Shown: in pieces, positions 846 to 24,564 of the stretch
Position numbering within the stretch: the stretch's first letter is position 1
Layout of the letters: every line of letters begins with the position of its first letter
DNA from: Gammaproteobacteria bacterium
GTDB lineage: Bacteria; Pseudomonadota; Gammaproteobacteria; Chromatiales; Chromatiaceae
DNA length: 56,871 nt
Direction: 5' to 3'
Assembly (NCBI GenBank): GCA_018812525.1
Contig: JAHJDE010000085.1
Coordinates: 1-56,871, forward strand
Notes under the pieces: generated by a model
The model's input: only the letters and a program-made list of their open reading frames with translations
The model's database searches: none
What the model was told of the DNA's origin: nothing
Position numbers and translations under genes: made by a program

Positions 846-1244
846 TCAACCGCCGTTCAGGGTAGCGCGGATCCTGCGATGCACATAATCGGGGCTGCCG
901 GCCACACCGGATGCGGCGGTCACTTCCACGTCATAGAGATTGTAGGCCCCTCCCCCCTCGGACACCGGGTAGGGGGTACAGCGGTCAATGGTGATACTGA
1001 AGGCATCGAGGGTAAAGTTCGTGGGAACCGCGGGGCAACCGCCGGCGCGGACCTGGAACAGGGTCCACTCCACCCCTGCCCTGGCCGCGTACCAGGCGCG
1101 CACTGCTTGCAGGGTCAAGGCCGTGCCCGACTGCTGCGCCAGCAGCATATTGACCATATAGCCCCCCAGCAGGGAAACCACCACCAGCAGGAAGAGGGCG
1201 CTGACCAGGGTGAAGCCTCGGGGTCGAGAGAGGATCTGTCTCAT
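846..1244 (-). CDS. mshP: MSHA-type minor pilin, MshP-like
   Basis: This 132-residue protein has a short basic leader, then GFTLVSALFLLVVVSLLGGY, a prepilin-peptidase site with a hydrophobic alpha-helix. It fits MshP, which lacks the conserved Glu5 of major pilins. Two cysteines (in GGCP and DRC) may form a disulfide in the periplasm. Its ATG overlaps the mshO stop (ATGA), so translation is probably coupled. It is the last gene of the mshA/B-C-D-O-P order seen in Vibrio-type MSH pilus loci. It probably primes or caps a type IV pilus or pseudopilus. PilX-type assignment is the alternative. Confidence 0.7.
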   Translation of the reverse strand: MRQILSRPRGFTLVSALFLLVVVSLLGGYMVNMLLAQQSGTALTLQAVRAWYAARAGVEWTLFQVRAGGCPAVPTNFTLDAFSITIDRCTPYPVSEGGGAYNLYDVEVTAASGVAGSPDYVHRRIRATLNGG

Positions 1245-2134
1245 GGCAGGTTCGTCACCAGCACCTGGTGATGCAGCACCACGCTTTCACCGTCGCGGGT
1301 CAATTCCAATCTGATGGACACTACCCCGTTGCGGGTGCCGGAGCCTGGTGTATAGCTGAAGGCGCAGCCAGTGACGCGTTCGGCAAGCAGTGCGCGTTCG
1401 GCTGGATTGGGCAGTATCGAGAGCACTCCGTTTAGTTCCTGATCGCTGTCTACATCGCTGTGATTCGCTCGGATGCTGTAGCCCTGGTAGCGGCGCAGGG
1501 TCCCTGACCCAAGATCGCAGAGGTAGCTGACCGGGGTATCCACCAGATAGAAACGCTGCTCGGGCGAGGCCTGGGGAAAGGCCGTCTGTCCCAATCCGAA
1601 CCCGGAATCGGCGAAGCTGAATTGCAGGCCGGGCGGCGGACCTACCGTCACGGCAGCCACATTATGGCCGCCATAGGCATCGCTGTTGCCGTATCCCGTG
1701 TTGTAGACCACCAGGCAGGTGGCGCCGAGGTCGATACAGTTCGTTCCTCCAGCGACGGGGACAATCGCAGCACTGCCGGTGGGGGGACCGAGCCATTCGA
1801 AGGCTGTGTCGTTGGCGGCGGGACTAAAATTGAGATAATCCCCTGGCGGGCTGGCCCGGTAGCGCCCCCCTGTGAACGCATGGAGGAACTCCAGACAGCC
1901 GCCACCGCAACCGATCCGGACACTGTTCGGCAGGGCCTCGCGAAGCTCCCGGCCGATGCGATCCAGGGCGCCATCGGCGATATCCACCAACTCCCCGCGC
2001 CGGGCCTGGGCCACGAAGGCGGTCACCGGCCAGGTGATGAACTGCGCTACCACGGTTGCCAGGATGCCGCTCAAAACGATGACCACCACCAGTTCGACCA
2101 GGGTGAAGCCCTTGTTCCGATGGCCAGCTCTCAA
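1241..2134 (-). CDS. mshO: MSHA-type minor pilin, MshO/PilW-like
   Basis: The predicted 297-residue pseudopilin starts at a TTG giving (M)RAGHRNKG, then the processing site G/FTLVELVVVIVLSGILATVV. The rest is a periplasmic domain of PilW/MshO type with several cysteines. No ATG lies in the right place. The frame is also open further upstream to a TTG at 2314, but that stretch is encoded by the inserted 171-bp repeat and would wreck the short prepilin leader. The start therefore lies just inside the element's right-hand flanking direct repeat. Between mshD and mshP it completes the msh order. Confidence 0.7.
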   Translation of the reverse strand: MRAGHRNKGFTLVELVVVIVLSGILATVVAQFITWPVTAFVAQARRGELVDIADGALDRIGRELREALPNSVRIGCGGGCLEFLHAFTGGRYRASPPGDYLNFSPAANDTAFEWLGPPTGSAAIVPVAGGTNCIDLGATCLVVYNTGYGNSDAYGGHNVAAVTVGPPPGLQFSFADSGFGLGQTAFPQASPEQRFYLVDTPVSYLCDLGSGTLRRYQGYSIRANHSDVDSDQELNGVLSILPNPAERALLAERVTGCAFSYTPGSGTRNGVVSIRLELTRDGESVVLHHQVLVTNLP

Positions 2135-2138
2135 TTCA

Positions 2139-2309
2139 AATTTGTAGGTTGGGTTAGGTGCGCAGGCGCACTGTCCTTGGGTGGTCGGAAAGGCCGGTGC
2201 GCGCCGTAACCCAACAATACGCCGAGCCACCCGTTGGGTTAGGGCGCGCATCATCTTCGCGAGGAGATGAAACCCCGTCGCGTTTGCGCACCTAACCCAA
2301 CCTACCGAA
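2139..2309. mobile_element. 171-bp palindromic element with 9-bp direct repeats
   Basis: The ends are inverted copies of a gtaggttgggttaggtgcgc-type sequence, and the same nine bases (ctcaattca) flank it at 2130-2138 and 2310-2318. This looks like a target-site duplication. The duplication carries both the mshD stop and the mshO TTG start, so the operon remained readable after insertion. No transposase is encoded, so it is MITE-like. A related half-element is at 41348-41430. Confidence 0.7.
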
Positions 2310-2310
2310 C

Positions 2311-2754
2311 TCAATTCAGCCTCCAGCCACTGACGCTGATATTGATACGGGGATCGCCGTCATGGGTGACAGTAACGGCGATTTGCGTGGCGGGCGAACC
2401 GTTGAGGGTGACGGCGGTCACCTGAACCGCCACATTGTAGGCCTCCAGCCCGGCAATGACCGTGCCGGACTGGTCAACGGCGCCGGCTGTATTGCTCAAG
2501 CCGTTGTAATCCCAGACATCGTCGAAGGTGGCGCGGCCCGTATCCCCGCCCGGCGGATCGGCCAGGGGCTTGCCGATGATCTCCTCCAGATAGGCCTGGG
2601 CGATGGCGGTGGCCTGTTCGGTCAGCATGGGATCGGCGCTGTGGCGTGCGGCGTTGCTGATGACCAGCATGACACCTGTGACCACGACGGCAATGATGGC
2701 GATGGAGACGACCAATTCGACGAGGGTCAGGCCTTGGGAATGCCGCCGCACCAT
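2311..2754 (-). CDS. mshD: MSHA-type minor pilin, MshD-like
   Basis: The 147-residue product has a basic leader MVRRHSQG and then LTLVELVVSIAIIAVVVTG, a type IV prepilin N-terminus with Glu5. The mature part is small and probably periplasmic. I chose ATG 2754 because GAGGAAGA lies directly upstream and because a longer frame would put 70 residues before the leader. It begins eight bases after the mshC stop. MshD is a minor pilin in the MSH family; the assignment rests on position and fold class more than on detailed sequence. Confidence 0.7.
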   Translation of the reverse strand: MVRRHSQGLTLVELVVSIAIIAVVVTGVMLVISNAARHSADPMLTEQATAIAQAYLEEIIGKPLADPPGGDTGRATFDDVWDYNGLSNTAGAVDQSGTVIAGLEAYNVAVQVTAVTLNGSPATQIAVTVTHDGDPRINISVSGWRLN

Positions 2755-10715: not shown

Positions 10716-10781
10716 CGGCAAGAAAAGGGGGGGTTAAGGGGATGGGGGCAGTGTAGTGCCGATCAGGGAGCTATTCCAGGC

Positions 10782-12532: not shown

Positions 12533-12560
12533 CGGGCTAGAAAGGCATCCAGGAAACTCA

Positions 12561-12592
12561 TCTTAACCGCCAAGGACGCAAAGAACGCGAAG
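12561..12592 (+). repeat. Short dispersed repeat, ccgcaaaggacgcaaag type
   Basis: The sequence aaccgccaaggacgcaaaga occurs in variant form at 13047-13072 (reverse), 33949-33980, 46068-46098, 46196-46236 (reverse) and 56422-56458 (reverse). This motif is widespread in environmental bacterial genomes. No function is evident. Confidence 0.7.
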
Positions 12593-12667
12593 GAAAACAT
12601 TGAGTTGCATTTACCTGCTTATTCACTGATCGGGTTTGCGATGAACTACAGATAAGTCATTGTATTC

Positions 12668-12832
12668 TTAGCGAGGCTTCGCCTCAGACCGACGAGACAT
12701 GAATTACGCCGCCATACCGTAGGAGCGCCTTGCAGGCGCGATTGGGGTGGTGAAGATCGCGCCTGCAAGGCGCTCCTACGAGTTGCAGCAGAATTTGACT
12801 CAAATGCAAAGCATTCCGGCACTCAAGAACCC
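12668..12832 (+). repeat. 165-bp repeat with 61-bp palindrome, copy 1
   Basis: The central palindrome 12719-12779 has two 24-bp perfect arms. Flanking single-copy-looking sequence is also shared with the second copy at 33717-33879, so the repeated unit is larger than the palindrome. Copies differ by scattered substitutions outside the arms. Non-coding. Confidence 0.85.
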
Positions 12833-12833
12833 T

Positions 12834-13048
12834 AGGAGCTGTCCGGAAATAAGTTGGACAATATCGCGCTCAGATTCAGGTCGGATTTGGTCGATCTGAT
12901 TGAGCAAAACCACCTATTTTCGCGGCAGAACCGCTCCCGCCGCCGTGGGAGCGGCTCTGCCGCGAAACAGATCGATTGAAGATCGGCCAAAGATGGCCTG
13001 AAGATGAGATGCGAGATGTACAAGTTATTCCCGGACAGTTCCTTAGCG
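12834..13048 (+). mobile_element. MITE-like element, about 215 bp, copy 1
   Basis: Imperfect terminal repeats (ggagctgtccggaaataag and its complement) are flanked by TA, as for Tc1/mariner or IS630-type insertions. A central hairpin (about 12921-12967) has arms of the ttcgcggcagaaccgctccc type. A second, inverted copy with one end missing lies at 49515-49697. No transposase for it is in the window. Confidence 0.75.
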
Positions 13049-13094
13049 TGCTTTGCGTCCTTTGCGGTTGATCTGAGAAATTCAGGAGATAGCA

Positions 13095-13865
13095 TCAGCG
13101 CACGATGCTGCGGCGGCAGTCGGCAAAGAACGCCGTAAAGAGGCGGAGCTCGTCGGCATCATCGGCCATTGCGGCGATGCGTACCTGGGCCTCCTCCAGT
13201 TTCAGGCCGGACTTGTAGAGGACCCTGTAGGCCCTTTTGATATTCTGCAGGGCCGTCTCACCGAAGCCCCGCCGCTTCAGCCCCTCGGTATTGATGCCGT
13301 AGGGCTCGGCGGGCTGGCCCGAGACCAGGACATAGGGCGGTACATCCTTGCTCACGGCGCTGCCCATGGCGAGAAAGGCGTGCGCCCCGATATGGCAGAA
13401 CTGGTGGACCATGGCAAAGCCGCTCAGGATGGCCCAGTCCCCAACCCAAACATGGCCGCCCAACGAGGCGGCATTGGAAAGGATGACATGGTCGTCAATC
13501 TGGCAATCGTGGGCCACATGGGTATAGGCCATCAGCAAAACATCGTTGCCGATGCGGGTGAGACCCTGGTCCTGGGCCGTGCCTCGATGGATGGTCGCGT
13601 ACTCGCGTATGGTGTTGCGGTCGCCGATCTCCAGATAGGTCCGTTCCCCGCCATACTTCTTGTCCTGGGGGTCCTCGCCCACCGAGGCGAATTGATAGAT
13701 CCGGTTGTCACGGCCGATACGGGTCGGTCCCTTGATGACCACATGGGGTCCCACGACGGTGCCTGGGCCTATGACCACCTCGGGACCGATGACCGAGAAG
13801 GGACCAACCTCCACGTCATCGGCCAGCTCCGCCCCTGCGTCTACGACAGCCCTGGGATCGATCAC
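13095..13865 (-). CDS. lpxA: UDP-N-acetylglucosamine acyltransferase
   Basis: LpxA performs the first step of lipid A synthesis, transferring 3-hydroxyacyl from ACP to UDP-GlcNAc. The sequence is a left-handed beta-helix of hexapeptide repeats (VVIGPGTVVGPHVVI and so on). The catalytic histidine lies in THVAHDC. A C-terminal helical domain follows (LKRRGFGETALQNIK). About 256 residues from the GTG at 13865, which is one base after the fabZ stop. A longer frame exists upstream but lies wholly within fabZ. The fabZ-lpxA order is conserved. Confidence 0.95.
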   Translation of the reverse strand: MIDPRAVVDAGAELADDVEVGPFSVIGPEVVIGPGTVVGPHVVIKGPTRIGRDNRIYQFASVGEDPQDKKYGGERTYLEIGDRNTIREYATIHRGTAQDQGLTRIGNDVLLMAYTHVAHDCQIDDHVILSNAASLGGHVWVGDWAILSGFAMVHQFCHIGAHAFLAMGSAVSKDVPPYVLVSGQPAEPYGINTEGLKRRGFGETALQNIKRAYRVLYKSGLKLEEAQVRIAAMADDADELRLFTAFFADCRRSIVR

Positions 13866-20999: not shown

Positions 21000-21144
21000 C
21001 CAGAAATGCCCTCCATTTCATGCGAAGACGCCAAGAACGCCAAGGAGATCGGGAGACTCGCCCCGTGAAGAACAGACAGGGTGAATCCAATCGACGGCTT
21101 TGCGACTTTGCGCCTTTGCGCGAGAAGATTTATGGAGGTCAGGA

Positions 21145-24146: not shown

Positions 24147-24177
24147 CTAGTTTCCAATCGGAAGTCGGGAGTCAGGA

Positions 24178-24322
24178 GAGGTTCTTGCAAAACTGCAAGA
24201 ACCTCTTGCGGTTCAGGGATGAACCGTCATTTTCAATGGCCTAAGCCATTGAAAATGAAGAAAACGAGAATCACATTTTTCGTTTTCGTCTTGCAAAATG
24301 GCCAGGATGGCCATTTTGCAAG
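24178..24322 (+). repeat. Five-hairpin repeat, copy B (reversed relative to pyrH)
   Basis: All five hairpins are present on the plus strand. Hairpin 2 has one G-U pair (last base T) and hairpin 4 has one G-U pair plus a one-base loss. Both GGA loops are intact. It reads away from the adjacent gene pyrH, whose start is 31 nt away. Confidence 0.9.
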
Positions 24323-24387
24323 TTCCTCAGGATAAGCCGTTCCGGCTTCTAAATACTACTAGCAAGCCAACATGAAACGCCACCACC

Positions 24388-24433
24388 GTAGGTCGGGCTT
24401 TAGCCCGACACGTTGGCCTGAAGGCCAACCTAC
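24388..24433. repeat. Three-way-junction palindrome
   Basis: Outer arms gtagg/cctac enclose two perfect hairpins, tcgggc-ttta-gcccga and ttggcc-tgaa-ggccaa. The unit can fold as a three-way junction. It lies between copies B and C of the five-hairpin repeat. Confidence 0.75.
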
Positions 24434-24457
24434 ACCCTGCCGTTTCAAATTGACTGA

Positions 24458-24541
24458 AGAGGTTCTTGCAAAACTGCAAGAACCTCTTGCGGTTCAGGGA
24501 TGAACCGCCTTGCAAAATGGCCAGGATGGCCATTTTGCAAG
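24458..24541 (+). repeat. Five-hairpin repeat, copy C (hairpins 3 and 4 deleted)
   Basis: Hairpins 1, 2 and 5 are present and perfect, but hairpins 3 and 4 are cleanly missing, joined at the hairpin 2/hairpin 5 boundary. The two GGA-loop hairpins are kept. The deletion shows that hairpins behave as modules. Confidence 0.9.
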
Positions 24542-24564
24542 TGCCTCTGAATACTACCCATACA

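Follow-up and report, generated by a model that had tools for sequence, protein, structure and literature searches.

Dimers of GTAG REPs of the head-head (HH) type have an outward-facing GTAG at both ends, inverted hairpins and many, mostly intergenic copies (Di Nocera et al. 2013, PMC3733652), and REPs lying in frame near protein N-termini have been described in the same work (PMC3733652). In the REPIN/RAYT systems (Bertels and Rainey 2011, PMC3116915) and the REP/RAYT units (Nunvar et al. 2010, PMC2817692) the REP doublet is the mobile unit, and excision has been reported for both; no flanking duplication is met in the sections of these two papers that we draw on. The spread of REPs was still called unelucidated in 2021, in the part of that paper which addresses it (PMC8266576). 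Here we analyze a dimer that shares the HH layout, down to its outward GTAGs, inverted hairpins and many mostly intergenic relatives, within a 56,871-nucleotide stretch of Gammaproteobacteria bacterium DNA (the window). It is bounded by a 9-bp direct repeat and separates two genes whose names, mshD and mshO, are those of a preliminary description of this DNA; what our analysis shows for them is confined to N_methyl domains and a conserved gene order in relatives.

Results

Structure of the element

The preliminary description had reported a palindromic 171-bp element flanked by identical nine-base repeats that hold the mshD stop and the mshO TTG start, and direct reading bears this out. The nonamer CTCAATTCA stands at 2130–2138 and again at 2310–2318, 180 bp apart, enclosing 171 bp (2139–2309) that form an inverted pair of GTAG-type REP hairpins. 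The mshD stop TGA occupies 2313–2311, and a TTG in frame with mshO is found in each repeat copy, at 2314–2312 in one and at 2134–2132 in the other. The conserved core consists of two inverted REP hairpins with GTAG pointing outward (2144–2305), and the direct repeat does not abut it, being separated from the conserved ends by 5 bp (AATTT) and 4 bp (CGAA). The features are as follows.

1241–2134, minus strand: mshO, short form, its GFTL motif preceded by 8 residues; carries an N_methyl domain (PF07963)
1241–2314, minus strand: mshO, long form, a 357-codon ORF that opens at the mshD-side TTG and reads in frame across the entire element
2130–2138: the 9-bp direct repeat, left copy; it reads TGAATTGAG on the minus strand and contains the TTG (2134–2132) at which the short-leader mshO starts
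2139–2143: AATTT, 5 bp between the direct repeat and the conserved family end, outside the shared consensus
2144–2215, plus strand: REP unit 1, GTAG tag and long hairpin (GTAGGTTGGGTTAGGTGCGC...GCGCGCCGTAACCCAAC)
2216–2232: spacer separating the REP units
2233–2305, minus strand: REP unit 2, inverted, GTAG tag outward (a head-head dimer in the terms of PMC3733652)
2306–2309: CGAA, 4 bp between the conserved end and the direct repeat
2310–2318: right copy of the 9-bp direct repeat, with the mshD stop TGA (2313–2311) and the ancestral TTG (2314–2312) inside
2311–2754, minus strand: mshD, N_methyl domain, with its stop inside the right repeat copy
2320–2324, minus strand: a Shine-Dalgarno-like GGAGG within the end of mshD, 5 nt ahead of the TTG at 2314–2312; direct reading finds it in the same place in the congener

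The 40-nt arms of the element are 80% complementary and the arms of the inner hairpin 94%. Folding of 2130–2318 gave z scores of −8.0 as RNA (minus strand) and −8.9 as DNA, with none of 200 shuffles reaching its stability in either case. The stem-loop of GTAG REPs is present, and so is their tag, a GTAG tetranucleotide at the outer end of the palindrome on each side. The hairpin cores (~35 nt between conserved GCGC clamps, 2159–2200 in the window) differ strongly between copies at all REP loci. Two mir-3923 matches in Rfam fell far below the gathering score and were taken as chance palindrome hits.

The motif GTAGGTTGGGTTAG has 54 exact matches in the 3.5-Mb, 215-contig genome, or 68 with at most one mismatch, against 1 for a reversed-pattern control. 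In 40 stretches around these matches we counted 27 inverted pairs of 76–401 bp, a number that leaves out pairs of at least 420 bp and single units. Gene context is available for 18 pairs, and across 16 of them no ORF of 120 codons or more extends; the other two are the window's pair and one with a 140-codon ORF. Exact copies occur in 8 of 55 genomes searched, this one included, mostly with few per genome. Copy number, mostly intergenic position and dimer arrangement are those of the GTAG REP superfamily, and its tag, hairpin, copy number and arrangement identify the element as a head-head GTAG REP dimer as that class is set out in PMC3733652.

The nine-base duplication and the empty site

The preliminary description had pointed to the empty site in relatives, and there its expectation holds: in G001, the only same-genus genome compared (its sequence matches Gammaproteobacteria bacterium RIFOXYD12_FULL_61_37 contig MGZB01000055), the junction is GGAGGTTGAATTGAGAGCTGGCC, in which both window flanks run directly into a single nonamer. 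The straightforward reading of this junction is an insertion that duplicated 9 bp, and such an insertion into the mshD/mshO overlap is well supported by the sequence comparison. The repeat might instead be a chance match beside an old repeat, in keeping with its presence at 1 of 27 copies only, but none of 702 mismatched pairings of left and right flanks (offsets within 15 bp) reached 9/9 identities, and in the congener the two flanks meet at exactly one copy, which makes coincidence scarcely credible.

The polarity of insertion and loss rests on two species, and the element with its 9-bp repeats could be ancestral, the congener having lost it by slippage between the repeats. Hairpins favor slippage deletion. 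Segments between short repeats are also often deleted by slippage in bacteria, as described in PMC2884548, but it is in the empty form alone that GGAGG, kept in both species, stands 5 nt ahead of the mshO TTG, and the ancestor would still require a duplication to arise. We consider such a loss very unlikely.

Flanks of the other copies

An exact flanking repeat was found at only 1 of the genome's 27 inverted pairs, the window's own. The other 26 have none of at least 6 bp within the offsets tried, and across the other copies no fixed-offset duplication is enriched, whatever the offset and for every length between 4 and 9. Among 13 pairs at loci from relatives the longest flanking repeat was 7 bp, and the 9-bp duplications that the preliminary description had proposed to look for elsewhere are absent from all 13, as from the 26, an outcome that goes against its transposase reading. 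When 52 distinct GTAG dimers of several sequence types were scored, same-flank duplicates having been removed before counting, the only standouts were the window's (score 9) and that on contig C52 of G001 (score 13), against mismatched flank pairings that scored at least 9 in 14 of 2652 cases and never 13. No donor copy with both AATTT and CGAA flanks is present among the genome's own copies listed. Nine base pairs is not a family signature.

Tight gene junctions in the two species

Three other tight junctions, two in the window's genome and one in the congener, carry REP-bearing insertions with duplications of 4, 5 and 16 bp (the last 15/16). All three duplications include a start codon, the other species has a single copy in each case, and both neighboring genes are open. 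On contig C94 of the window's genome a 265-bp composite insert has duplicated ATGA, and on C131 a 455-bp composite insert has duplicated ATGAA, each with one copy in G001; these 4- and 5-bp overlaps, both in composite inserts larger than the REP, could be microhomology or plain start-codon preservation. On C52 of G001 two abutting genes are parted by a GTAGGTCGG-type REP with a 15/16 duplication (GGAGGTCTGA[G/A]ATGAC), flanked by GGAGGTCTGAGATGAC and GGAGGTCTGAAATGAC, and therefore ribosome site, stop and start are all doubled; the empty counterpart in the window's genome is TGA-G-ATG.

A comparison of gaps with G001 listed 12 in which one side is longer by 40 bp or more and the other measures 45 bp or less. 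Six of these have GTAGG or CCTAC in the insert, with three exact or 15/16 duplications, one poor and two none; the insert at L113 11415 has only 4 of 6 letters duplicated, and the GTAGG- or CCTAC-bearing inserts at window 12537–13098 and 24171–24545 show no duplication. The mshD/mshO case was established apart from this comparison because G001 carries another repeat there. Eight further own elements (C10:16197, C10:24218, C10:28981, C131:13484, C94:9766, C113:5951, C43:4434 and C151:29962) gave no clean junction against G001, because the gaps have diverged and G001 holds another REP type or an altered copy. The element at C113:25116 lies in a stretch aligned throughout and has a copy in G001 too, and C151:43377 has no syntenic match in G001. 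Little synteny was found between 180 kb of own contig C175 and 220 kb of contig C1 of G001, where the one clean insertion (139 bp, with a 5-bp repeat) lacks GTAGG. All empty sites are drawn from one congener, and since it is only roughly 75–90% identical at the DNA level in the stretches compared, older junctions are blurred.

At several intergenic sites (L113 10219–10408, L117 10485–10609 and L113 2198–2388) the same place is taken in the congener by a GTAG REP of another type (for example GTAGGGTGGATAAGCG), as if REP sites were re-used. At window 10734–10739 the congener has a 175-bp MITE-like insert with inverted ends TCTGTCCGGGAATAACATG, a relative of which sits inside the 562-bp insert at window 12537–13098. 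A second repeat, CTCGCGCAAAGACGCAAAG, accompanies many REP insertions (L117 2482–2936, L114 5843–6107, L113 11415–11570 and window 21003–21131).

Transposase and RAYT genes

The preliminary description saw in the 9 bp the sign of a transposase, a view under which the element would be MITE-like and mobilized by a DDE enzyme whose target duplications measure 9 bp. A perfect 9/9 duplication with a matching empty site and palindromic ends would suit such an element. A duplication of fixed length is, however, expected at most intact copies and next to the terminal inverted repeats, and neither holds: it is found at 1 of 27 own pairs, the others having none at any offset, and at 9 bp in 0 of 13 pairs from relatives, and 5 and 4 bp lie between it and the ends. 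The variable lengths of 4, 5 and 16 bp at the other REP-bearing junctions argue against an ordinary cut-and-paste transposase as well. Among the Y1 (PF01797) genes and a 926-bp inverted pair on C13, no transposase gene bounded by the element's ends was found. The inference from 9 bp to a transposase is not upheld, and we regard a DDE-type origin as decidedly unlikely. The C13 pair encloses a 259-codon ORF with no transposase recognizable by eye.

A RAYT is encoded in the genome, as in a REPtron: two of four tested proteins score above the NCBIfam cut-off of the RAYT profile NF047646 (142 and 200 bits against 80). A RAYT gene flanked by its cognate REP was not found, none of the seven PF01797 (Y1) loci having GTAGGTTGGGTTAG at up to 2 mismatches in flanks of up to about 1.5 kb on each side. 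The element's ends were compared with those of a Y1 transposase, and no shared ends were found. The element could nevertheless have entered as a single strand through a REP-associated tyrosine transposase (TnpA-REP/RAYT), a route that is itself duplication-free, the 9-bp repeat then being a repair by-product or a similarity between flank and target. In its favor, the GTAG tag and hairpins are TnpA-REP substrates, cleaved at CT 5' or 3' of the REP according to the section of PMC8266576 on this enzyme, the 9-bp duplication begins with CT, and two RAYT genes are at hand. On the other side stand the flanks of the seven Y1 genes, the account in PMC2817692 that IS200/IS605-type movement makes no larger target duplication, and the need for a 7-bp chance match, and we judge this route unlikely.

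At L231 1024–1768 there is a 745-bp Y1-transposase (RAYT-like) unit with ATTACGGTGACA ends, located on C175 here; the congener has it at an unrelated position, on C3, together with short copies of its ends that number in the dozens. It is apparently a mobile RAYT-type unit.

Consequences for mshD and mshO

The preliminary description had both genes separated without damage to either. A stop and a start are indeed kept for both, but after the insertion GGAGG serves the TTG on the mshD side, the one on the mshO side lacks a Shine-Dalgarno, and the insertion is in frame, so that the claim is doubtful as worded; both genes are likely undamaged, by a route other than the one envisaged. The insertion adds 180 nt, in frame and without a stop, and MshO may therefore carry a leader longer by 60 residues, translation from the original start placing 68 residues before the GFTL motif instead of 8. 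Elements of this family are open and of a length divisible by three in 11 of 162 element-strand-phase combinations.

Ahead of GFTL, G001 offers no ATG/GTG/TTG start other than the overlap TTG, which lies 50 codons upstream, beyond a different repeat. Between the two species mature MshO has a dS of 0.81 and a dN of 0.11 and is therefore under purifying selection; the long leader is probably tolerated. The repeat in the congener's mshO leader (L091 about 1945–2085) is rich in CCCTCCCC/GGGGAGGG and lies, in frame, between GTTA and GTTA; its relatives include copies in L058 and one nested inside a REP in L086. At the mshD/mshO junction a repeat would thus have turned coding, with different in-frame repeats in the MshO leader of the two species.

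Discussion

Taken together, the variable start-codon duplications and the foreign bases beside the REP suggest a copying or repair process with survivor selection, and variable length with such selection fits the junctions better than a fixed-length transposase duplication. We consider it slightly more likely than not that a REP dimer was copied into the mshD/mshO overlap in a replication-coupled manner, with survivor selection and a possible long leader as its sequel. In this lineage a GTAG-tagged REP dimer (REPIN/BIME-like inverted hairpins) entered the TTGA overlap, bringing 5 and 4 bp of foreign bases at its flanks, and the target's 9 bp were copied twice, as the congener's empty site shows. 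A stalled or nicked fork, perhaps started on this course by a REP nickase (TnpA-REP), may have copied a REP locus and resumed a few bases behind its point of departure, and such copy-in would yield duplications of variable length like those at similar junctions (4, 5, 9 and 16 bp). At abutting genes insertions would survive mainly when the duplication restores stop and start, which would explain why loose intergenic gaps, unlike such junctions, show no duplications. Thereafter mshO would be translated either from the mshO-side TTG, without a Shine-Dalgarno, or from the original TTG, which would lengthen its cytoplasmic leader by 60 residues, as the in-frame insertion allows. Replication or strand switching is inferred here from four junctions.

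More tentatively, replication-coupled copy-in may be how REP dimers at large spread, with a target duplication of variable length (4 to 16 bp here). Its signature would be seen only at abutting genes, where an insertion has to duplicate stop, ribosome site or start in order to survive; this we hold to be possible but rather doubtful. If it is true, REPs can separate overlapping genes or give proteins new in-frame leaders. Tight gene junctions would act as a filter that keeps the duplication readable, and junctions with matched empty sites are what can tell apart transposition as a single strand, classical transposition and copying coupled to replication.

In the literature searched, as far as its relevant sections go, we recognized no report of target duplications at REP insertions; one may exist in print. 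The word stem 'duplicat' does not occur in the main text of PMC3733652, and compared with the dimers treated there, the window's family has long hairpins with variable cores. With DDE-type MITEs the element shares its small palindromic form and a target duplication at one copy; unlike them, its family has no fixed duplication across copies, and the duplication does not abut the ends. As in the REPIN/RAYT and REP/RAYT systems, in the portions of PMC3116915 and PMC2817692 concerned, RAYT genes are present in the genome, but unlike those units this REP type has no adjoining RAYT in the flanks examined. Two entries in a table of PMC2817692 come close in sequence, both with a short hairpin and in a different host: the Coxiella burnetii REP GTAGGTTGGGCTGAGCTTGCGAAGCCCAAC has the same GTAGGTTGGG beginning as the window's REP, and the Thioalkalivibrio REP GTAGGTCGGCCTTCAGGCCGAC matches the REP inserted on C52 of G001. 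The element itself is an ordinary REP; it is the junction that is unusual, and useful.
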